32,001 bases of DNA, taken from assembly GCA_902806065.1 (NCBI GenBank), contig CADCVE010000062.1, positions 1-32,001 on the forward strand, written 5' to 3'. The notes under the pieces were generated by a model that made no database searches, was not told the origin of the DNA, and saw nothing but the letters and a program-made list of their open reading frames with translations. The position numbers and the translations under genes were made by a program. Origin of the DNA: an uncultured Rubrobacteraceae bacterium. GTDB lineage: Bacteria > Actinomycetota > Rubrobacteria > Rubrobacterales > Rubrobacteraceae. Below are positions 644 through 21,190 of this stretch, one piece after another; within the stretch, counting starts at the first letter, position 1; each line of letters starts with the position of its first letter.

Positions 644-1057
644 AGTTCAATCTCCTCTATTTAGAGTTTCCCTGTAGTACCTTGGTTGCCCTTCTCTTCA
701 GGCCAGATTCAATCTTCCTACAGCCTTGTTCCATACCGGAACGCTAACTCTCCTCTCTATTGTGAATCCGTGTCAGAGAACAGCATGTCCAAAACAACCC
801 TTTCGTACTGGGTCTGCTGTATAAGACAGCAGCCGTAAGGTATTAGTTGCAATTTGAGGCCCTCGATAGACGTTTGCGGGCGAAAATGGGTCGCATTGTG
901 TAGTCGAGGTACATAAATTGTGTAGCCACTGTACATATTTAGCTGTACCAAAGTCGGACTTCATCTAGCACTGAGTTCGCAAGGTCCCTCGAATGAGGCT
1001 CGTGCTTAGAAAGTCTCTCATATTCTTGCGGCTTCTGATGATCGGTACGGTTGCCCG
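644..1057. other. intergenic stretch with a 22-bp tandem repeat
   Basis: This space lies between the 3' end of the MscS-type gene and the 5' end of the PRC-barrel gene, both on the minus strand. Short overlapping minus-strand frames of 63-64 codons (757-964) show no ribosome site or recognisable domain, and I treat them as chance. The only clear structure is the tandem repeat at 895-938. Confidence 0.5.
895..938 (-). promoter_or_regulatory. two tandem 22-bp repeats upstream of the DUF2382 gene
   Basis: The units at 895-916 and 917-938 each begin ATTGTGTAG and have GTACATA near the end, with a variable 5-base core (about 17 of 22 bases identical). Read on the minus strand they contain CTACACAA followed by TAC, a diverged form of the TACACACT-N4-TACAT element found five times elsewhere in the window, in the orientation of the downstream minus-strand gene. 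A protein-binding site is an inference. Confidence 0.45.
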
Positions 1058-2936: not shown

Positions 2937-3453
2937 CATGAAGGGCAAAATGGCCCAACGGCCGGACTTGACCGGGCAGCGGATACGATAGAGGAGCGGT
3001 TCGGGAAGATCTTCGCGGACTACGAGCGCCGGTTACGCGAGGAGAACCGCCTTCTTGTCATCGGAGATAGTCCAACGAGGTAGCACCTAGAGATAAGCGC
3101 ACACGGTGTGTGTAGCACGCGTCGAAGGTGCTGCGAGGCGAGGAGAAGTCTCTGCTCACGATGGAAGAAGAGATCTACAGGAAAACCGGAGCCGCCAAGG
3201 AGCCCTTGAACCCGCACCCGGATGAGTCTTTCAGGGCGGGGTGGTGCTGTATCTGCTCCGACTGTTTTCGATCGGAGTGTATCGGGGTGCGTAGTAGAGG
3301 CACCATACAACGGCGGAGACTCCGGGTAGCCTGAGGAATACGGAGTCAGACGGGTGAGCGCCTCGCAAAGGGGCATACACACTCTGATACATTCTCGGTG
3401 GAAACCGCTAGATCCGAGGTTATTGCATGTAGAATAGCTCGTAATGTTCTATT
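2937..3453 (+). other. non-coding or decayed stretch with possible gene fragments
   Basis: Two plus-strand pieces look partly protein-like. At about 2955-3081 an open frame ends with IEERFGKIFADYERRLREEN and stops at a TAG, but it has no in-frame start; an ATG at 2939 behind GGAGG is out of frame with it, as in a frameshifted small gene. At 3161-3334 a 57-codon frame starting MEEEIYRKTG contains a Cys cluster (CCICSDCFRSEC). I recognise neither, and both may be remnants. The stretch ends with the regulatory element at 3376-3392. Confidence 0.25.
3376..3392 (+). promoter_or_regulatory. TACACACT-N4-TACAT element, copy 1
   Basis: TACACACT CTGA TACAT, 62 bp upstream of the GTG of the small protein at 3454. 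First of five elements with the same layout, each oriented toward the adjacent gene. The function (activator site or promoter part) is inferred from recurrence only. Confidence 0.5.
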
Positions 3454-3861
3454 GTGAGCGATTTTCATACGCTACGGCTCGTGTTCAGCGTTGCACGAGA
3501 AAGGAGCGTACGGATCTTGCGCATACTGATTGCCGTAAAGCCGCGCGTATATCGCGAAGTAGTAGCACTTTTACTCCACCAACAACGTCCGGACGCCGAG
3601 GTGTTGATCTCTCCTCCGGAGAGTCTTGACGGGGAGGTGGGGCGATTCAAGCCGCACGTGATCGTTTGCACCGAGGGAGCCGTGCCGGACATACCACCGG
3701 GTGTCCTGTGCCGGGTCGAGATGATGTTCAGCGACGGGCTGGACGCCAGGATCGGCCTTGACGGACAGGTTACGGAGGCGAAGGATGTCGGCACCAAAGA
3801 CCTACTCGCGCTCGTGGACCAGACGGCGGAGATGATCTCCGAGGGAGAGAATGTAGGCTAA
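3454..3861 (+). CDS. small protein, paralogue of the one at 6929
   Basis: 135 aa from GTG 3454. An alternative TTG at 3517 has AAGGAG 10 nt upstream and would remove 21 residues. I do not recognise a named family. The core begins RILIAVKPRVYREVVAL, an alternating beta/helix pattern like the first beta-alpha unit of a receiver or other Rossmann-like fold. Later come DAEVLISPPESLDGEVGRF and DGLDARIGLDG, shared with the paralogue 3 kb away. No signal peptide or membrane helix. It carries the recurring element 62 bp upstream and ends convergent with the YjdF-like gene. It is real coding sequence, because two diverged copies keep the same frame and motifs. Confidence 0.75.
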   Translation: MSDFHTLRLVFSVARERSVRILRILIAVKPRVYREVVALLLHQQRPDAEVLISPPESLDGEVGRFKPHVIVCTEGAVPDIPPGVLCRVEMMFSDGLDARIGLDGQVTEAKDVGTKDLLALVDQTAEMISEGENVG

Positions 3862-3925
3862 CCTGTCCCGCCGCCAGGTGGCACCTCCTCTTCGCATGCA
3901 TCGCCGAGCTTTGCGGCGAGGTTCG

Positions 3926-4357
3926 TTACCGAACCCGGGGACGGCGGGAGTTCGTGCGCGAGCGCCCGAAGAGCCGGTCGAGGTAGCGGTCGGCGATCCA
4001 GGCCCCCAACGCGCCGCCGAGGATGCCGAGGAAGATGTCGAAGAACGTATCGGGCAGGGCGCGGTCTATATGAATACCCATCAGGTCCATTAGTATCTCT
4101 ATCCCCTCCCACGCCGTCGCACCGACGAGGCCGATCACGGAACCCGTGATGATAGCGTGCCGCGGGGTATTAAAGAATTCGTCGTCGCCCCCGCCCCGAT
4201 AGACGATCTCGGCCACGATCGCGACGAGCACGAGTGGCGTGAGTATGTGAGCGACCTCATCGTAGAGCGGTACGGGCTCGAAAAGGTTCCACGCGAACCC
4301 GGCCCCGTTCAAGACCGCGCAGAAGACGACCAGCGTTACCACCCAAACGCGCGGCAC
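3926..4357 (-). CDS. YjdF-like (DUF2238-type) integral membrane protein
   Basis: 143 aa with about four membrane segments (residues about 5-25, 35-55, 70-90, 105-125). LYDEVAHILTPLVLV and DTFFDIFLGILGGALGAW carry the spaced acidic and His residues typical of the DUF2238/YjdF group. Biochemical role unknown. The start is GTG (MPRVWVV); the codon sits 5 bp after the stop of the AIM24-like remnant, so the two were probably one transcript. The C-terminus is short and basic. It ends 64 bp from the convergent small gene at 3454. The family call is by pattern and moderate. Confidence 0.7.
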   Translation of the reverse strand: MPRVWVVTLVVFCAVLNGAGFAWNLFEPVPLYDEVAHILTPLVLVAIVAEIVYRGGGDDEFFNTPRHAIITGSVIGLVGATAWEGIEILMDLMGIHIDRALPDTFFDIFLGILGGALGAWIADRYLDRLFGRSRTNSRRPRVR

Positions 4358-4362
4358 CTTCC

Positions 4363-4569
4363 CTAACCCCCCACCGAGCTACCGTCGAAAGCCAACGCAC
4401 ACACCCTTGTGAGCGAACCCCACCTCACCCTGTAGGCGGCCATCGAGCGCAGCTTCGCCTGGACCGATTCACCCTCCAACCTAACCTTCAGAAGCGGAGA
4501 GTTCTGCAGCGTGAACGTTCCGGTCGGGGGCACTTCCTCGAACTGGTTGAGATTCGTCTCACTCACCAC
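4363..4569 (-). pseudogene. truncated, frameshifted AIM24-like gene
   Basis: 68 codons from GTG 4569 behind AGGAGG. The N-terminal 45 residues (GTFTLQNSPLLKVRLEGES, VQAKLRSMAAYR) resemble the start of AIM24/TIGR00266 proteins, which have a conserved 'S-M-x-A-Y' segment. After AAYR the expected continuation (GEVGFAHKGVC) is in the next reading frame and stops after FRR, so the gene carries a frameshift and lacks the rest of a domain that is normally over 200 aa. AIM24 family function in bacteria is poorly defined. Adjacent to, and same strand as, the YjdF-like gene. Confidence 0.6.
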
Positions 4570-4641
4570 GCCACCTCCTGGTCGTAAGTCGTTACGGACA
4601 TATCGATGTTTGCACCTGTAATTCGTGTATCGTCAAACTTC

Positions 4642-4716
4642 TTAGAGCAGAAACAGGATAGCGTTCACAAGGAGGGTCAAGGTCACGCTCAAGACCACAC
4701 TGACCAGCACCCACAA
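4642..4716 (-). CDS. possible 24-residue single-helix membrane peptide
   Basis: TTG at 4716 with AGGGGG 7 nt upstream, stop TAA at 4642-4644. The product is almost entirely hydrophobic (LWVLVSVVLSV, TLTLLVNAILFLL), fit for one membrane helix. It precedes the AIM24-like remnant by 72 bp on the same strand. No family is recognised; coding potential rests on the ribosome site and the composition alone. Confidence 0.35.
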   Translation of the reverse strand: MWVLVSVVLSVTLTLLVNAILFLL

Positions 4717-4873
4717 TAAACATCCCCCTGGAATACGCAACTATGCGACCCACCTTTCCTCGTCAAGATAGACTATCTTATTCTGCTACCAGCCGCGTCG
4801 ATTCTACCCGCGGTTCCGGACGACTCACTTGGGAGACCGCCGGGACTCCAGGATCGGACCGAGGCGAAAACTT

Positions 4874-5353
4874 CTACAGTTCGACCTCGACGTACTTGTC
4901 GTGCCCCTCTCGACGCTCGCGTTCGGGCAGGTCGAGGCTGCGGAGCAGCTTCAGCATGCCCCTGTTTCCGTGCATGACCAGCGCGTAGAAGCGCCTAGCT
5001 CCGTTATCACGCGCGGTGGCGACCAGCTGGTGAGTCAGGCCGACGCCCACCCCACGTTCCTGCCAGAGGTCCTCCACGAGGGCCGCATACTCGGCCCGAT
5101 CGCTACCCACTTCGCGGTCGTAGCGTGCGACCGCGATAATTTCGTCCGATTCGCTGGGATCCAGCGCGACCAAGGCGTAGTGGTTCGTGTTGTCGGTGTG
5201 GGCGAAATACCTGGCCTTCTCATCGTTCAACTCTCTCATAGGACCGAAGAAACGCAGGTAGATCGAACGCTCGCTAAGCCGACCGTGGAACCGTTGCAGG
5301 GCGGAAGCGTCACCGGGCCGGATAGTGCGAACCGATAATGCTGTGCCATCTCC
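4874..5353 (-). pseudogene. GNAT acetyltransferase, 3' part, interrupted by IS630
   Basis: 159 codons downstream of the IS insertion encode a GNAT N-acetyltransferase: SVRTIRPGDASALQRFHGRL at the start, FFGPMRELNDEK, then the acetyl-CoA loop region LWQERGVGVGLTHQLV (about 70 residues from the C-terminus) and MLKLLRSLDLPE. The remaining frame has no start of its own before the IS (it reads on into the IS to an ATG at 5485). Joining this piece to 6432-6477, with one copy of the TA duplication, restores an uninterrupted 175-aa gene. GNAT enzymes transfer acetyl groups to small molecules or proteins; the substrate is unknown. Confidence 0.85.
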
Positions 5354-5380
5354 TAAGTACCTCCAACATATAATTGCCGA

Positions 5381-6417
5381 ATGCCACCAGCACGCTTCAT
5401 CCGACTGACCCAAGAACAAGACGCCCGCCTGCGAGAGATCGAGCAGGACCCCCACCTCAAGCCGAAGGTGCGTCTGCGCGCCCAAGTGCTACGCCTGTCC
5501 AATCGAGGGGAGCGCGTGGAGCAGATCGCCGTCTACACCGGGCGCAGCCCTACAAGCGTCCTGCGCGACTTCGACCGGTGGAAGGAGCGCGGTTCGGAAG
5601 GCCTAGCGGACGGAACCGCCCCAGGCAACCCGCCGCGTGTCACCGGGGAGGTGAAGGCTTTCATGGAGGAGAATCTCGCCGAGGAGAGAACCTGGAACGC
5701 CAAGCAGTTAGCCGAGGCCGTCGGAGAGCGTTTCGGGATCGTCGTGGGAGCCGAGGCCATTCGCCAGCATCTGGCGGCGATGGGCTACCGCTGGAAGCGT
5801 ACTCGCTACGCGCCATCTAAGCCACCGGACCCCGAAGAGGAGTGTGAAGCCCGGAAAGAGCTGGAGGCGCTAAAAAAGGGGCTTCGGAGGGCGAACTCGT
5901 TCTGAAGTACCTGGACCAGAGCGGGGTCTCGTTGTGCCTGCCCCCCGCGTACTGCTGGACGAGGAAGGGGCGAGAGCACCAGCACCGGGTGAGGACTCGG
6001 TGGGGAAAGCAAGGACGGATCAACCTGATCGGCACTCTCGCTCTGGCCTCTTCGGGGAACGAGCGGCTGGAGTACCGGATGTTGGAGGGCTCGTGCAGGA
6101 CGGGGGAGGTGCTCTCTTACCTGAACGATTTGGCCGAGAGGGCCGAGCGGGAGGGCAAGCCGGTCGTGGTGGTGCTGGACAATGCGCCGTTTCACAAAGC
6201 CGGGGCGGTGAGGGACGCGCGGACCGGGTGGGAGGCGAAGGGACTGAAACTCTACTATCTGCCGGCGTACTGTCCGCACCTGAACCTCATCGAGGGGGTG
6301 TGGCGTAGGCTCAAGGGCTTCCTGATGCCAAGGCGCTTCTACGACTCGTTGGCTGAGCTAAAGCAGGCCGTGGTGAGTGCCCTGAGGCTACTTGGTGCCG
6401 TGGAGCTTCAGTGTTAG
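5381..6417 (+). CDS. IS630 transposase, two frames joined by a -1 frameshift
   Basis: The first frame (5381-5905) encodes the helix-turn-helix part (RLREIEQDPHLKPKVRLRAQ, AVYTGRSPTSVLRDFDRW, ERTWNAKQLAEAV). The second ends at 6417 and encodes the DDE catalytic domain: LKYLDQSGV (first Asp), VVVVLDNAPFHKA (second Asp) and CPHLNLIEGVWRRLK (Glu). The frames meet at A AAA AAG (5872-5878), a classic slippery heptamer in the correct phase; a -1 slip gives a 345-aa protein, the usual size for IS630. Programmed frameshifting is therefore likely rather than mutation. The element may be active. Confidence 0.9.
5872..5878 (+). other. A AAA AAG slippery heptamer (-1 frameshift site)
   Basis: Zero-frame codons are CTA AAA AAG GGG. 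After a -1 shift translation continues as KKGASEGELVLKYLDQ into the catalytic frame. I did not identify a defined stimulatory stem-loop, though the downstream sequence is G-rich. Confidence 0.75.
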
Positions 6418-6431
6418 CTTGGAGGTACTTA

Positions 6432-6477
6432 AGGTAAGTGTTTTGTGTTCTTGCTTGGCCTCTGTTTGTCGACTCAT
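6432..6477 (-). pseudogene. GNAT acetyltransferase, 5' part, on the far side of IS630
   Basis: ATG at 6475-6477 with AAGGAG 8 nt upstream starts MSRQTEAKQEHKTLT. With the IS and one TA removed this continues in frame as L-GDGTALSVRTIRPGD into the piece at 4874-5353. The native promoter region and the recurring element (6650-6670, minus orientation) remain attached to this side, so the downstream part has probably lost normal expression. Confidence 0.82.
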
Positions 6478-6649
6478 TCTTTACACTCCTTGGTCTCGCC
6501 GTGCGTTTCCTGGACGGGTCGCTCGCTCGATAAGAAGCCCGGTACACATAGTAAGGGGAAAGGAGAAGTCGGTACCGGGCTGGAACACTACACAAAGATA
6601 GCCCACCCCCAGCTACCTCAAAAGCTGATCCGGGCGATTTCCGTTCAAA

Positions 6650-6670
6650 ATGTATCGAAATGTGTAGTGG
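6650..6670 (-). promoter_or_regulatory. TACACATT-N4-TACAT element, copy 3 (minus)
   Basis: On the minus strand: CCAC, TACACATT, TCGA, TACAT. It lies 173 bp upstream of the GNAT ATG and points toward it. It also shares the CCAC prefix with the copies at 8096 and 10139. Confidence 0.5.
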
Positions 6671-6823
6671 AGAACCATCGCGATGTATGTAACGTACGTG
6701 TTGGAGCTACATCGAAAGGCATACTCAACTACGAGAGGTTGCATTAGTGGAGGCTTCGGGCGGATAGCAGCGTACCGTGGCAGGCGAGGCTGACTGGATA
6801 GGGCGTGCACATACTTCTGCCCG

Positions 6824-6840
6824 TACATACTTTGATACAT
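6824..6840 (+). promoter_or_regulatory. TACATACT-N4-TACAT element, copy 2
   Basis: TACATACT TTGA TACAT, 89 bp upstream of the small gene at 6929. A further ACATACT half-site lies just upstream (about 6809-6815), so this copy may have three half-sites. Confidence 0.5.
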
Positions 6841-6928
6841 TTTACCTTGCATCGATCAAATGTGTCTTCTGCAAGGATATACTCTCTTCACAAAGCTATC
6901 TGTGGGCGGTTTGTGTACGTAGCGTTTC

Positions 6929-7354
6929 GTGTCGGGTTTTCCACAATTAAGGAGCGTACGTATCGCGCGCATACTGGTTGCCGTAAAGCCACGCGTGTAC
7001 CGCGAGGTGCTAGCACTTTCACTACACCAACGCCGCCCGGAGGCTGAGGTGTTGCTCTGCCCCCCGGAGGCTCTCGACGGAGAGATAGGGCGCTTCAGGC
7101 CGCACCTGGTAGTTCTCGACGACAACGGCGCCGCCGCGCCGGACGGGATGTCGGGGGCTCTATACCGGGTCGAGATACTGCTCGGCGCTAGCATGGACGC
7201 CAGGATCAGCGTGGACGGGCGGGCCCGGGAGGTAAAGAATATCTGTATGGAGGACCTTCTCGCCGTGGTGGACGAGGCGAAGAAGAGGCAGAGTAGCAAC
7301 CCGTCCTGCCTCCGGGCTACGCCTCTTCTTCCTCCTCTTCGCCTATGTCACTGA
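6929..7354 (+). CDS. small protein, paralogue of the one at 3454
   Basis: 141 aa from GTG 6929. The N-terminus MSGFPQLRSVRIARILVAV parallels the copy at 3454 (MSDFHTLR, then RSVRI) but lacks about nine residues. Shared motifs are AVKPRVYREVLAL, PEAEVLLCPPEALDGEIGRF and SMDARISVDG. Unrecognised family, soluble, with no membrane segment. There is AAGGAG within the coding start region but no good codon after it, so the start may be leaderless or mis-set. The last 38 bp overlap the convergent response regulator gene; the tail (NPSCLRATPLLPPLRLCH) is unlike the paralogue and may be an acquired extension. Confidence 0.75.
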   Translation: MSGFPQLRSVRIARILVAVKPRVYREVLALSLHQRRPEAEVLLCPPEALDGEIGRFRPHLVVLDDNGAAAPDGMSGALYRVEILLGASMDARISVDGRAREVKNICMEDLLAVVDEAKKRQSSNPSCLRATPLLPPLRLCH

Positions 7355-7994
7355 TGGTGATCCACTCATTAAGAAGGGCTTGCCTCACGGCCTCGCCTCG
7401 CGATCCGACCTCCATCTTGTGGTAGACGTTCGAGAGGTGGCGCTTGACAGTGCCTTCGGTAAGGTGGACCCTGGTGGCTATCTGGCGGTTGGAGAGCCCA
7501 CGGGCGGCAAGCAGCAGGATCTCTAGCTCCCTGGCGGAGATGACTCCCTCGGCCCCTCCCTCGGCCTCCTCCAGCATCTCACGCGGCATCCCCACGACCA
7601 CGTTCCCTTCCTTAGGGTCGAAGACCGCGGCGCGTACCGTGGCGATGAGGTGTGTCGATGAGGCGCTCTTCAAGACGTAGCCGCTGGCCCCCAGCTTCCA
7701 GAGATCCCGTATGAAGGCGGGATCTTCGAACATGGTGACGACCACCACCTTGGGCGTGGGCTTGACCGCGCGCATCCGGTCTAGGGCCTCCTTAGCCTTC
7801 TCAAAGGGCATCTGCACCTGCATGATTACCACGTCGGGCTTCAACTCGCGGGCCAGCGCCACGGCCCCTTTATCGTTGGTCGTCTCCCCGACCACCTCCA
7901 AGCCCCCGTAAGAGGTCAGAAGCCCCGCCAGTCCCTCGCGGAACAGGGCGTGGTCGTCGGCCAGCAGCACCGTTGTCGGACGTTCTTGAGCCAT
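7317..7994 (-). CDS. NarL/LuxR-type response regulator lacking the phospho-acceptor Asp
   Basis: 225 aa. Receiver domain residues 8-125: acidic pair D13-D14 (LLADDHALFREGL), Thr87 (VVVVTMFED) and Lys109 (SGYVLKSAS) are all present. At the phosphorylation position, however, the motif reads PDVVIMQVQMP, with Gln59 where Asp is expected. The C-terminal LuxR helix-turn-helix (about 150-205: ISARELEILLLAARGLSNRQIA, LTEGTVKRHLSNVYHKM) is intact. A Glu-rich tail ends the protein. It is thus probably a phosphorylation-independent regulator. No histidine kinase is adjacent. It is divergent from the PhaC-like gene and overlaps the 3' end of the small gene at 6929. Confidence 0.9.
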   Translation of the reverse strand: MAQERPTTVLLADDHALFREGLAGLLTSYGGLEVVGETTNDKGAVALARELKPDVVIMQVQMPFEKAKEALDRMRAVKPTPKVVVVTMFEDPAFIRDLWKLGASGYVLKSASSTHLIATVRAAVFDPKEGNVVVGMPREMLEEAEGGAEGVISARELEILLLAARGLSNRQIATRVHLTEGTVKRHLSNVYHKMEVGSRGEAVRQALLNEWITISDIGEEEEEEA

Positions 7995-8095
7995 TTAGCC
8001 TAATCTAGCTTAAATCGACGACAAGGATGAACTTCTCGCAAGTCACGCAATGCCTCCATACAGTCAGAACGAGCATCGCAAATCTTAACACGCCG

Positions 8096-8116
8096 CCACT
8101 ACACACTTCGGTACAT
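8096..8116 (+). promoter_or_regulatory. CCAC TACACACT-N4-TACAT element, copy 4
   Basis: CCAC, TACACACT, TCGG, TACAT, 152 bp upstream of the PhaC-like gene. The next about 35 bp resemble those after the copy at 10139 (CTTTG followed by a GG/CC-rich region and a CTTT-CCG segment), so the two regulatory regions may be duplicates. Confidence 0.55.
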
Positions 8117-8267
8117 CTTTGATCCGAGGCGGCCTTCCGCGCTTTTCGAATGGGTCGCACTCGGTTATAAAGTCCGCTGCGCTAATAACAACGCGCAACG
8201 GGGAGGGCGTAGGACTCTCTCATATTGCTGCTCTCCCCACGATCCCCACGAGAAAGGAAGAGCAAGA

Positions 8268-9506
8268 ATGCCGAACGACTCGATGACACTATCACCGCGC
8301 AAGACCGAGGACCACGAGCCGGTCGCCAGGAGGCGAGCCCAGGCGGGTTTCAGCCTTGGTCCTCTAGGAATCCTCGACTACGATGGCCCGGAAACGATCC
8401 GCGCAAGAAAATACGCTACGGGCACGCACGTGCTCTTGGAGGAGATCGGGGTCAAAACCGGAGCTACGCCTATGGAGGTAGTGTGGACCAAGAACAAGGC
8501 TCGTCTCTACCGCTACCGGCGCGCCGACGGCGATGGCGGCGGGAAGAGACGAGCGGTCCCGATACTCCTGATCTACGGCTTCGTACTCAAGCCCTACATC
8601 CTGGACCTGGTGCCGGGCAACAGCCTGGTGGAGTGCCTGGTAGAGGAGGGCTTTGACGTCTACCTGCTCGACTTCGGAATCTCCGGTCCCACGGACGCGG
8701 GGTTGTCGATTGGGGACCTGATCCTGGACTACATGCACGGCGTGGTGGAGAAGGTCCTCGCCACCTCTGGCGCCGCCGAGATTAGCCTCTTAGGGCAGTC
8801 CCAGGGCGGTACGCTGTGCGCCATGTACGCCTCCCTGTTCCCCGACGGACCCCTCAAGAACCTCGTCCTGCTCTCCGCGCCCACGGAGTTCGCCCCTCTA
8901 AACCCTGGTCCCTTCGGAATGTGGACGTACGCGAGCCGCAACAGCGGGGCATTCTTCAACCCTGCGATAGTGCCGCAGTTTTTGGGTAATTTGCCGACGG
9001 ACTTTGCCAGCCAGGTCATTAGCTCCGCGGCCTCCTTGCAGGCTACCACTGTCAGCATGGTCGCCCGGCCCTTCGGCCGCGGATTGAGCGTTTATGATCC
9101 GGCGCTGCGGGAGGTAAGGGAGTTGGCCGAGCGGGACGTTTCCATGCGTTCTTGGCTGGCGGTGAGCAAGTGGGTCGACGACGCAGCTCCCTTCCCGGGC
9201 GAGACCTTCCGAAAGTGGGTGGGAGACTTCTACCAGCGCGACAAGCTCGTCAAGGGGCGGGTGAAGCTGCGCGGGCATAGGGTGAACCTCTCGAACATCC
9301 GGTGCTCCGTGCTCAACGTTTCGGGCAAGTGGGATTACGTCGTCCCACCCTCCCAGACCAAAGCCACGACGGCTCTCGCCTACGGCCCGGATCAGGAGTA
9401 CATCTCCCTGGACGCAGGGCATGTGGGTATGCTCGTTGGGCCAGCAGCCGTGGGCAGTCTCTGGCCTCGCCTCCGGAACTGGCTCGAACCTCGCTCGGGC
9501 CAATAG
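8268..9506 (+). CDS. PhaC-like alpha/beta hydrolase with Ser nucleophile
   Basis: 412 aa, ATG preceded by AAAGGAAG. The layout is that of class III poly(hydroxyalkanoate) synthase: PILLIYGFVLKPYILDLVPG, SLVECLVEEGFDVYLLDFG, then the nucleophile elbow GQSQGG (Ser178), Asp356 (GKWDYVVPP) and His385 (DAGHVGM). True PHA synthases use Cys at the elbow (G-x-C-x-G). Ser here suggests a hydrolase or depolymerase, or another acyltransferase, rather than polymer synthesis. No PhaE partner, phasin or PhaB gene is nearby. It is preceded by copy 4 of the recurring element and divergent from the unusual response regulator. Confidence 0.85.
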   Translation: MPNDSMTLSPRKTEDHEPVARRRAQAGFSLGPLGILDYDGPETIRARKYATGTHVLLEEIGVKTGATPMEVVWTKNKARLYRYRRADGDGGGKRRAVPILLIYGFVLKPYILDLVPGNSLVECLVEEGFDVYLLDFGISGPTDAGLSIGDLILDYMHGVVEKVLATSGAAEISLLGQSQGGTLCAMYASLFPDGPLKNLVLLSAPTEFAPLNPGPFGMWTYASRNSGAFFNPAIVPQFLGNLPTDFASQVISSAASLQATTVSMVARPFGRGLSVYDPALREVRELAERDVSMRSWLAVSKWVDDAAPFPGETFRKWVGDFYQRDKLVKGRVKLRGHRVNLSNIRCSVLNVSGKWDYVVPPSQTKATTALAYGPDQEYISLDAGHVGMLVGPAAVGSLWPRLRNWLEPRSGQ

Positions 9507-9529
9507 AGAGGTGGGCACAACGGGAGGAC

Positions 9530-10019
9530 AACCAGTGACCGTGGCTCTACTACCAACCCTTTAGCTCCGACATCACGATGGATGGCGGCGGCGCGTGCCC
9601 GGGGGAGCAAGCGGACAGACCGCCTGTTCGACGAGAGAGCATGGAGTCCGCCGCACAGTAGGACGAGCCGGGACCGTACCCCGCGCGTGATCCGCACCCG
9701 CTTCTTCGACGACTTACCGCTGAACCCCTGGAGGAGATTGAGGGTGCGCCAGGTGGTCTTCAGGCCAGCCAGCCTGCATCGGCCGCGCCATTGCGTCTGG
9801 ATTGGACTGTGGCCAATGCCGGCCTCTCTCGCCCGGCGCGATACACTGGAACGGTTTGGGGCGAACGATCCAGAGATGCTGGTAACCCGCCACGGCTGGG
9901 AGGCAACGGTGACGCAGCCCAGCGAGGAGGGGCGAAATCCTGGCGTGGCCCAAGCCGATGTGCTCCGGCAGGTTCCGGGCTTACCACAAAGCTTCCTGGT
10001 AACAACGCTCCGCTCGTGA
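9530..10019 (+). pseudogene. remnant of a TIGR00027-type SAM-dependent methyltransferase
   Basis: The frame encodes pieces of the leucine carboxyl methyltransferase-like family in correct order: WMAAARARGSKRTDRLFDE (start), VIRTRFFDDLPL and RVRQVV (motif I region), a scrambled segment where another frame gives APLRLDW (the GLD-x-RA-x-R region), and the C-terminal RHGWEATVTQPSEEG and VPGLPQSFLVTTLRS with a natural stop. About 100 or more central residues are missing (the family is about 280 aa), and no convincing start remains. The identification is by my recall of family patterns, and I believe it sound because five segments match in order. Confidence 0.65.
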
Positions 10020-10138
10020 GAGGGTTCAGGCCTGCTCCTCCCGCGGATTGCGCCGGGAACATCAGGGCATTACTGAGTTCGATATCTCCACGCCCCCTGT
10101 CGTACCGTCGATACGAGCACCGTATAATCCGACGCGTA

Positions 10139-10159
10139 CCACTACACACTTCGGTACAT
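10139..10159 (+). promoter_or_regulatory. CCAC TACACACT-N4-TACAT element, copy 5
   Basis: CCAC, TACACACT, TCGG, TACAT, 147 bp upstream of the ATG at 10306. It is identical over the 21 bp to copy 4, and continues with the same CTTTG. Confidence 0.55.
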
Positions 10160-10305
10160 CTTTGGTCTAAGACGACCTTTCGGACTTTCCGAGACAGCAG
10201 CGGTGTATTAAGGTATTTCTTGGCACTAGTCACAATGCGGCGGCTGAAGTATTGGATAAGCCGTGATCCTCGCGGGACAATCGTCTCAGAGAAAGGCGAG
10301 CAAAG

Positions 10306-10526
10306 ATGCTGAAGAACAGGTTGGCGCGACCACCGTACCTCGCCGCCTCTTACTGGCTTATCGAGAAGCACGAGGCCGGAAGGACAAAGCTGCCCCCGTT
10401 CACCTGGAGAGCGGAGGAGAAGCCCTGCCAGTCTTCAGTTGGGCGGAAGAAGCCGGGATGTTCATCAGTTTCGGCGAGTTCGACGCGCCCGCGGCCAGGG
10501 CGGCGATGTCTCAGGAAGGGCCGTAA
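10306..10526 (+). pseudogene. frameshifted small protein gene upstream of the desaturase
   Basis: ATG 10306 follows GAGAAAGG and starts MLKNRLARPPYLAASYWLIE in one frame. From about 10385 the protein-like sequence continues in the neighbouring frame (KAAPVHLESGGEALPVFSWA, EEAGMFISFGEF) to a stop at 10526. The two halves read as one small soluble protein with a single-base shift in the run GGAAGGACAAAG. I cannot name the family. It stands between copy 5 of the recurring element and the desaturase and may once have been co-transcribed with it. Confidence 0.45.
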
Positions 10527-10632
10527 AGAGGCGTAGAGCCGACGTCCGGCGCTGCGCAATCAGATGGGCTACGTGCTCAAGAAAAGTACAAGCAGACGCC
10601 GGGCGGAGTCCGGCGCAGGCATTGGAGGTATA

Positions 10633-11454
10633 TTGAAGTATCTAAAGGCAGTGTTGGTGGGGTTGGGGCTTGCGCAGTTGGCTACCCTGATCACTACCAT
10701 CTACCTACACCGGGTCCTCTCGCACAAGGCCATCCGGCTCCACCCGGCGCTAACGATGTTCATGCGCGTGGGGACGTGGATGCTCACGAGCATATCGCCC
10801 CGCGAGTGGGTCGCCGTCCACCGCAAGCACCACAACTTTAGCGACGTAGAAGGAGACCCGCACAGTCCCCACGTCGAGGGGTACTGGAAGATAATGCTTG
10901 CCAACGTCTACTACTACCGTCGCGAGGCGAATCAGGACGATACCATGGAGAAGTACGCCGCCGACCTCCCCTTCGACCGCCTGGACGAGAAGCTCTTGAG
11001 AAACGGTACCCTCGGGTTCTCGCTGACCGGTGTGATCCTGACGCTCCTCATGGGCTTCAAGCCTGGTCTGGTGGCGTTGTCCACGCTAGCGAGCGTATAC
11101 CTGACACTGAACGCTGCGATCAACGGCGCGGGCCACACCTTCGGCTACAAGAGCTTCGAGAACGACGCGACCAACCTCAAGCTGCTGGCGCTCATCACCT
11201 TTGGCGAGGGACTGCACAACAATCACCACGCCCGCCCGGCCTCGCCCAAGCTCTCCGCCTTCGAGGGCGAGATCGACCCGGCCTGGCCCGTCATCCGGCT
11301 TCTGCAAAAGGTCCGGCTCGCCGAGGTCCTCACAAAGGCCAATGAGGGCTGGGAGAACCACCGCCGCCGCCTCCCCGAACCGACCATAGTGCGCCCCGGC
11401 GCCGGCATCGCCACCGCCGAGGCCAACTCTTCTACAAAGAAATCAGCTGCCTAG
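10633..11454 (+). CDS. membrane fatty acid desaturase (delta-9 acyl-CoA/lipid type)
   Basis: 273 aa from TTG 10633 (GGAGG at 10624-10628). An ATG at 10564 in the same frame adds 23 polar residues that family members usually lack. All three His boxes are present: HRVLSH, HRKHH and HNNHH. Hydrophobic helices lie at about residues 3-25 and 135-175. It should use a di-iron centre, with O2 and an electron donor, to introduce a cis double bond into acyl chains, adjusting membrane fluidity. No ferredoxin or reductase is adjacent. It probably belongs to the transcription unit headed by copy 5 of the recurring element. Confidence 0.9.
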   Translation: MKYLKAVLVGLGLAQLATLITTIYLHRVLSHKAIRLHPALTMFMRVGTWMLTSISPREWVAVHRKHHNFSDVEGDPHSPHVEGYWKIMLANVYYYRREANQDDTMEKYAADLPFDRLDEKLLRNGTLGFSLTGVILTLLMGFKPGLVALSTLASVYLTLNAAINGAGHTFGYKSFENDATNLKLLALITFGEGLHNNHHARPASPKLSAFEGEIDPAWPVIRLLQKVRLAEVLTKANEGWENHRRRLPEPTIVRPGAGIATAEANSSTKKSAA

Positions 11455-13888: not shown

Positions 13889-14160
13889 TGCCGCGCACCC
13901 CGCCTTCGACGGGCTCGAACCCGGCGAACTCCCGGCCGTCGGCTCCGGTCCAGCTACCCCGATAGCACATGAGATAACCCGCTTAGTGCTGCTGCCTCCC
14001 GGCCCTGACACGATTCGCGGGGTCTCATTGCCCGAGACCAGACCATCAACGCTTTCGTCACCGGTTTCAACCGAACCCGGGCCGCCTCAGGCGGGGATCT
14101 AGGCCCTGGTATGCGAATTCCAGGTTACAGGGCATCGCCAGCTCCCCGCTTAGCGCGGCG
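13889..14160 (-). ncRNA. ffs: large bacterial SRP RNA with Alu domain (4.5S/scRNA type)
   Basis: On the minus strand the region matches the conserved parts of the Bacillus-type 270-nt SRP RNA in order: 5' GCTAAGCGGGGAG and TGCCCTGTAACCTG with ACCAGGGCC (Alu domain), then the apical S-domain loop GTCAGGGCCGGGAGGCAGCA followed by CACTAAGCGGG, TCTCATGTGCTATCGGGGT, and a 3' end GGTGCGCGGC. The 5' GCCGCGC pairs with the 3' GCGCGGC, setting the ends near 14160 and 13889 (about 272 nt). It binds Ffh to target nascent membrane proteins. Exact ends are inferred from pairing. Confidence 0.88.
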
Positions 14161-21006: not shown

Positions 21007-21099
21007 TCATTTCGAGGCAGACTGGCTCTCGAAGCCAGGCAACTTCTAGCCCGAGTTGCCGGGGCCCCTCCTGATCGCTGAGCACTAATAGCTACAGAG

Positions 21100-21190
21100 C
21101 GGAGAGGGTGGGATTCGAACCCACGAGACGGCTTAACACCGCCTACGCGATTTCCAATCGCGCTCCTTCGGCCAACTCGGACACCTCTCC
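21100..21190 (-). tRNA. tRNA-Ser(GGA)
   Basis: 91 nt on the minus strand. Acceptor stem GGAGAGG/CCTCTCC with discriminator G; anticodon stem-loop CGCGA-TTGGAAA-TCGCG with anticodon GGA; a long variable arm (GGCGGTG...) as in class II tRNAs; T-arm GTGGG-TTCGAAT-CCCAC. It is complete and well paired. CCA is not encoded. It is divergent from mtnA. Confidence 0.96.

Follow-up and report, generated by a model that had tools for sequence, protein, structure and literature searches.

A conserved, oriented predicted operator accompanies a response regulator without a phosphoacceptor aspartate in Rubrobacteraceae

The first 32,001 nucleotides of contig CADCVE010000062.1 (assembly GCA_902806065.1), from an uncultured Rubrobacteraceae bacterium, carry several copies of a short element, TACAYAYT-N4-TACAT, upstream of genes; we refer to the whole of this stretch as the window. 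The copies cluster around the response regulator gene 7317-7994(-), whose product we term Q-RR, and the genes behind them include two that encode paralogous small proteins, termed half-receivers A and B (Table 1). A preliminary description of the sequence had reported five oriented copies, three of them with a CCAC prefix and two identical over 21 bp. All five exact copies were located, at 3376-3392(+), 6650-6666(-), 6824-6840(+), 8100-8116(+) and 10143-10159(+), where 0.01 per window would be expected by chance (100 shuffles); the CCAC prefix is present on three, and the 21-bp identity is that of 8096-8116 and 10139-10159. The copies were also said to lie close upstream of co-oriented gene starts, which is generally so, but for the GNAT gene an interrupting IS630-like insertion sequence (IS) element puts the start of the present frame over 1 kb away from the site. 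The target list given there (two paralogous small proteins, a GNAT enzyme, a PhaC-like hydrolase and a desaturase) stands, with the corrections that the GNAT gene is broken by the IS element and that the small gene preceding the desaturase is frameshifted.

Table 1. Predicted operator sites, regulator, half-receivers and other genes of the window
Feature	Position	Strand	Remarks
Operator site 1	3376..3395	+	5' of half-receiver A; -10-like TAGAAT at 3430-3435
Operator site 2	6647..6666	-	5' of interrupted GNAT gene; -10-like TATCTT 66 bp from motif start
Operator site 3	6824..6843	+	5' of half-receiver B; -10-like TATACT at 6878-6883
Operator site 4	8100..8119	+	5' of PhaC-like hydrolase; -10-like TTATAA/TAAAGT ~64-68 bp from motif start
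Operator site 5	10143..10162	+	5' of YWLI/desaturase unit; -10-like TATTAA/TAAGGT 63-66 bp from motif start
Weaker sixth site	883..902	-	2 mismatches, 17.6 bits; ~250 bp 5' of PRC-barrel/DUF2382-like gene leaving the contig
Q-RR	7317..7994	-	NarL/FixJ-type response regulator; Gln59 replaces phosphoacceptor Asp (MQVQMP); proposed operator reader
Half-receiver A	3517..3861	+	Paralogue of B, 114 amino acids (aa); AAAGGAG precedes the TTG start
Half-receiver B	6965..7354	+	Start codon uncertain; 3' end overlaps the response regulator gene
GNAT (Pat-like lysine acetyltransferase) gene	4874..6477	-	IS-interrupted; frame continuous once flanks are joined
IS630-like element	5354..6431	+	13-bp inverted repeats 5354-5366/6419-6431, TA target; helix-turn-helix (HTH) open reading frame (ORF) 5381-5905, second ORF 5932-6417
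PhaC-like alpha/beta hydrolase	8268..9506	+	Class III polyhydroxyalkanoate (PHA) synthase-like, below curated cut-off
YWLI family member, frameshifted	10306..10536	+	Conserved unnamed ~130-aa target family; motifs YWLI, ALDPLPEM
DesA-like fatty acid desaturase	10564..11454	+	In the unit behind site 5

Pattern searches, which underlie all genome-wide site counts given here, found the exact motif six times in the whole genome (3.75 Mb), only one copy lying outside the window (contig C90), and the reversed pattern, used as a control, had no match in the 3.75 Mb. The best form of the operator is TACAYAYTTYGRNNCATTTT, which runs 3 bp (TTT) past the element first noted; with up to two mismatches it has 13 matches in the genome, against none for the control. 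Binding to a direct repeat had been suggested from two TACA half-sites 12 bp apart. The direct repeat is upheld, but that pairing is not: the matrix scores best at an offset of 10, and the half-sites are better read as a 10-bp direct repeat of ACAYTTY. Support for this reading is modest, in that 55 of 2000 column shuffles were as good over all offsets and all sites, and 22 of 2000 when only sites with A at position 14 were used. PadR operators are inverted repeats, ATGT-N8-ACAT. We found no inverted repeat in the operator matrix, whose inverted-repeat score is negative; the motif starts with TACA and has no ATGT arm, and a PadR-type operator was rejected on these grounds.

The operator is conserved in the family, membership of which was assigned from the titles of close contigs. 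Searches that allowed at most one mismatch gave about 73 matches in 25 Rubrobacteraceae genomes (control, 0); 24 Actinomycetota genomes outside the family had two matches in total. Exact sites adjoin Q-RR orthologues in G001, G015, G026 and G039, and a matrix scan of other genera placed weaker sites (approximately 20-33 bits) beside the orthologues in G021, G028, G029, G035 and G037. The complete chromosome of Rubrobacter marinus SCSIO 52915 encodes both the regulator and half-receivers, one of which is preceded by a site at a distance of 143 bp. Two half-receiver genes of the home genome that lie on other contigs (C51 and C31) also have an operator site; as these are unlinked to the window, the conservation is not mere linkage, and it points to a regulon and not just a conserved cluster.

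The position of the sites relative to putative promoters is also constrained. When 77 non-redundant sites were stacked, a -10-like hexamer was found 65-66 bp from the first base of the motif (31, against a shuffle mean of 5.8), and the best hexamer fell at 63-69 bp in 32 of 76 cases in the forward direction and in 8 of 77 in the backward direction. Half-receiver promoters have a spacing of 54-55 bp (11/19) and other targets one of 65-66 bp (19/29), with almost no overlap between the classes. The two spacings are one helical turn apart, which is the geometry of an activator. If transcription starts about 12 bp past the first base of the hexamer, the site would be centered near -57 or -68. A search for conserved RNA structure in the half-receiver leader returned only five weak pairs (-1.75 kcal/mol).

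We conclude from these comparisons that the element is a predicted operator of Rubrobacteraceae, conserved and oriented. The preliminary description had proposed that it marks an undescribed regulon and had looked to scans of the genome and its relatives and to conservation upstream of orthologues; the rarity of the motif, the unmatched reversed control, the near-constant distance at which it precedes orthologous genes in many genera and the oriented spacing to the -10 hexamer all support that proposal, and no published description of the motif was found in the literature searched.

Q-RR contains a receiver domain (Response_reg, 1.1e-19) followed by a LuxR/GerE HTH (GerE, 2.1e-16), the architecture of the NarL/FixJ type, and the closest solved folds are VraR, LiaR, DesR (4ldz) and NarL. 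Its receiver keeps the Asp pair, the Thr and the Lys but not the Asp at the end of beta-3 that marks a canonical phosphorylatable response regulator; as a receiver without a catalytic residue, it belongs with the atypical, or pseudo-receiver, regulators. The phosphoacceptor is replaced by Gln in all aligned Q-RR orthologues (MQVQMP, versus LDVEMP in the sister regulators), and a further member of the clade, in G036, has Glu at this position. In a tree of 53 regulators, this Q clade, which consists of Rubrobacteraceae, was split from every Asp-bearing regulator with 98/98 support. Q-RR scored 122 bits against the NCBIfam model for MadR (NF047785), which requires 300, and it is not a member of that family. 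No kinase domain was found among ten window proteins around the sites, the whole neighborhood lying outside that scan. The Q-RR frame is broken by a frameshift or stop at L069, L045, L057 and L068, where operator sites persist. Another regulator of the group (G000:C99:19165-20215) has a half-receiver on the same strand upstream and an internal TGA.

In every Q-clade locus for which 3' flanking sequence is available, a gene for a half-receiver (approximately 113 aa) lies tail to tail with the regulator gene; no half-receiver was found near the closest Asp-bearing sisters. More distant half-receivers adjoin other LuxR-type regulators at 17 of 40 sampled loci, and tandem pairs of half-receiver genes often follow directly on a LuxR-type regulator gene. 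Neither Pfam nor NCBIfam contains a match to the family. Of 40 Rubrobacteraceae genomes, 33 have it, and a single genome can hold as many as 16 copies; in a phylum sample of 150 it was found only in members of Rubrobacteraceae. The structural model (pLDDT 87.5) has a beta-alpha-beta-alpha-beta arrangement like the first half of a receiver, followed by three strands and a helix; the receiver-like part fits RcsB, for example, with 1.9 A across 56 columns. Since Foldseek gave no match at E 0.001 or better, the resemblance covers half a receiver and does not amount to membership; the (beta-alpha)5 fold of a full receiver, with its Asp pair, phosphoacceptor, Thr and Lys, is absent. Sequence searches did not link half-receivers to any solved protein. 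The weak sequence similarity to Q-RR is centered on the opening strand and helix, where one of the two has MYRExLA and the other MFREGLA.

Half-receiver genes are the most constant targets of the operator, with a site approximately 137-146 bp from the start in most site-bearing copies. The site is not universal for the family: among 40 further loci, only 6 of 53 half-receiver hits had one of at least 15 bits. For half-receiver A the most likely start, as in its relatives, is TTG 3517, 141 bp from its site. In half-receiver B, the ATG/GTG/TTG start of the relatives reads GCG; the ribosome site is conserved, and there is an in-frame GTG at 6929. The loss of this start and the frameshift in the YWLI gene may reflect real decay or draft-genome errors.

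Two sub-motifs could be distinguished, although the groupings of sub-motifs and target classes were drawn after looking at the data. Sites near Q-RR mostly have the right half nACATTTT, and those before PadR and other genes mostly GGGCCATTTT. The base A at position 14 was found in 0 of 20 sites from genomes without a Q-clade regulator, in 30 of 68 from genomes with an EGT-type Q-RR and in 2 of 18 from other Q-clade genomes; the comparison of EGT-type genomes with all others (Fisher p=1.6e-5) is indicative, since the data had been seen when these groups were chosen. PadR-type genes at L207, L208, L230, L199, L225 and L056 have an operator form with GGGCCAT or similar approximately 183-263 bp upstream, and three of them are then followed by a YWLI-like gene.

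The operator, its orientation, spacing and conservation, its linkage to Q-RR and the loss of the Asp are computed features of these genomes. From them we infer that Q-RR binds the operator and activates transcription, with the half-receiver acting in feedback. We consider it probable that the operator belongs to Q-RR and that Q-RR activates a lipid/storage regulon. Most likely, Q-RR would contact a single face of the DNA at the asymmetric tandem site and, from a position about 57 or 68 bp before the transcription start, activate in class I geometry. Its predicted targets in the home genome are the two adjoining half-receiver genes, at least two half-receiver genes elsewhere, the desaturase and the PhaC-like hydrolase, and the Pat-like acetyltransferase would also have been a target before the IS insertion; such a regulon would serve membrane lipids and carbon storage. 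As normal phosphorylation of Q-RR should not be possible, either the quantity of the protein or a partner would determine how active it is. The half-receiver is the obvious candidate for this partner, since it is conserved, is convergently encoded, has a first helix that resembles alpha-1 of Q-RR and lacks the receiver phosphorylation residues, and it could act on Q-RR in feedback through the receiver dimer face. We suggest more tentatively, as an idea that may well prove wrong, that Rubrobacteraceae have a phosphorylation-free two-component branch in which Asp-less response regulators are controlled by half-receivers, made in the Q clade as feedback partners under the regulator's own operator.

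Several observations weigh against Q-RR as the reader of the operator and the half-receiver as its partner. The Q-RR frame is broken and yet sites persist in G028 and G024, which are few-contig genomes, and in G015-C228 and G026. No good site was found near some Q-RR loci (G003, G007, G009 and C24 of the home genome); most of these loci belong to a branch whose HTH turn differs (EAT, YPKM), a pattern consistent with altered specificity there. The profile comparison between half-receivers and receivers is weak (10.9% probability), and the link between them comes chiefly from the modeled N-terminal half. Related sites ending in GGGCCATTTT precede PadR genes and others, even where a genome has no Q-RR; a near-identical site would thus be read by at least one further regulator, perhaps an Asp-bearing sister response regulator, which could also read the sites discussed here. 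It is conceivable, if unlikely, that the reader is such a phosphorylatable LuxR-type sister and that Q-RR is its antagonist or a heterodimer partner competing for sites. Asp-bearing sisters (LDVEMP) are present in many of these genomes, some have similar sites nearby (G001-C258, G031-C100 and G035-C108), and the persistence of sites in genomes with a broken Q-RR would agree with this. However, genomes that have Asp-type sisters but no Q-RR (G008, G016, G017, G022, G023 and G027) contained no sites at the search stringency, G033 has sites without a close Asp-type sister, and sites with A at position 14 were found only in genomes with a Q-clade regulator.

Repression by bound Q-RR is considerably less probable, as the sites lie well upstream of the -10 hexamer at two spacings one helical turn apart, which is typical of activators, and do not overlap it in the well-placed cases. 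The fixed position relative to the -10 hexamer would be expected if the element were the core promoter of an alternative sigma factor or an upstream promoter element, but there is very little chance of this: a distance of 54-66 bp is too great for a -35 element and rules out a sigma-factor core element, and the approximately 20 conserved bp occur at few promoters per genome and accompany a response regulator clade. Two copies match each other exactly over at least 21 bp and are partly similar downstream, which would fit an origin of the copies from a repeat, a mobile element or local duplication, and the promoters at 8100 and 10143 may have a common ancestry. As a full explanation, such an origin has a negligible likelihood and is ruled out, since orthologous promoters in many genera keep the site while their flanks have diverged. 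We conclude that the regulon is real, is undescribed in the literature searched and most likely is that of the atypical response regulator Q-RR.

Joining the flanks of the IS630-like element restores one open GNAT frame, which starts MSRQTEAKQEH at 6477 and is interrupted near codon 16; the intact gene would have started 170-190 bp from site 2. YWLI proteins (approximately 130 aa) are a frequent target, with a site approximately 126-176 bp upstream. A site precedes desaturase genes in G000, G001, G028 and G035 and also in G015, where the desaturase is the second gene of a unit after a small PRC-like gene; acyl-CoA dehydrogenases are preceded by one in G028, G035 and G037, and PRC-barrel proteins and PadR genes were further examples. 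An Rfam scan of the window returned only tRNA and signal recognition particle RNA: a large bacterial signal recognition particle RNA at 13891-14158, beside dnaX, and tRNA-Ser at 21099-21190.

DesR is the NarL/FixJ regulator of the des desaturase in the DesK-DesR system of Bacillus subtilis, where its cognate membrane kinase, DesK, is encoded next to it. Q-RR is likewise of the NarL/FixJ type, has predicted desaturase targets and counts DesR among its closest folds, but it differs in the absence of the phosphoacceptor Asp, in its linkage to a half-receiver gene and in its operator and regulon. RcsA is an auxiliary protein that carries an HTH, whereas the half-receiver has none. RcsA modulates RcsB, a NarL-type regulator (PMC4125116), and the proposed pairing of Q-RR with the half-receiver is similar in combining a regulator of this type with an auxiliary protein. 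BldM and WhiI of Streptomyces are orphan atypical response regulators with an asymmetric heterodimer operator, and BldM sites are TCACcCgnncGgGTGA and TGnnCCGnnCGGGTGA (PMC4125116). They resemble Q-RR as atypical Actinomycetota regulators with an asymmetric operator, and the proposed parallel is control through a receiver-containing partner; WhiI, however, is a full regulator with its own HTH, whereas the half-receiver has no DNA-binding domain, and the BldM sites are unlike the Q-RR operator. The type of regulator is thus known, and its combination with the half-receiver family and this operator is new. Pseudo-receiver regulators in general share the absence of a catalytic residue, and a 2025 review called their on/off switching a mystery (PMC12632262). 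What sets the Q clade apart is one nearly fixed substitution together with a predicted operator, a predicted regulon and a conserved receiver-like neighbor. The defined operator, the promoter spacing rules, the target list and this neighbor make the switching question directly testable. No regulons were found for the Rubrobacteraceae lineage in the literature searched. If the reading presented here is true, this would be the first regulon for lipid genes in the lineage, and an undescribed gene-control circuit would work without phosphorylation in Rubrobacter-type soil bacteria.

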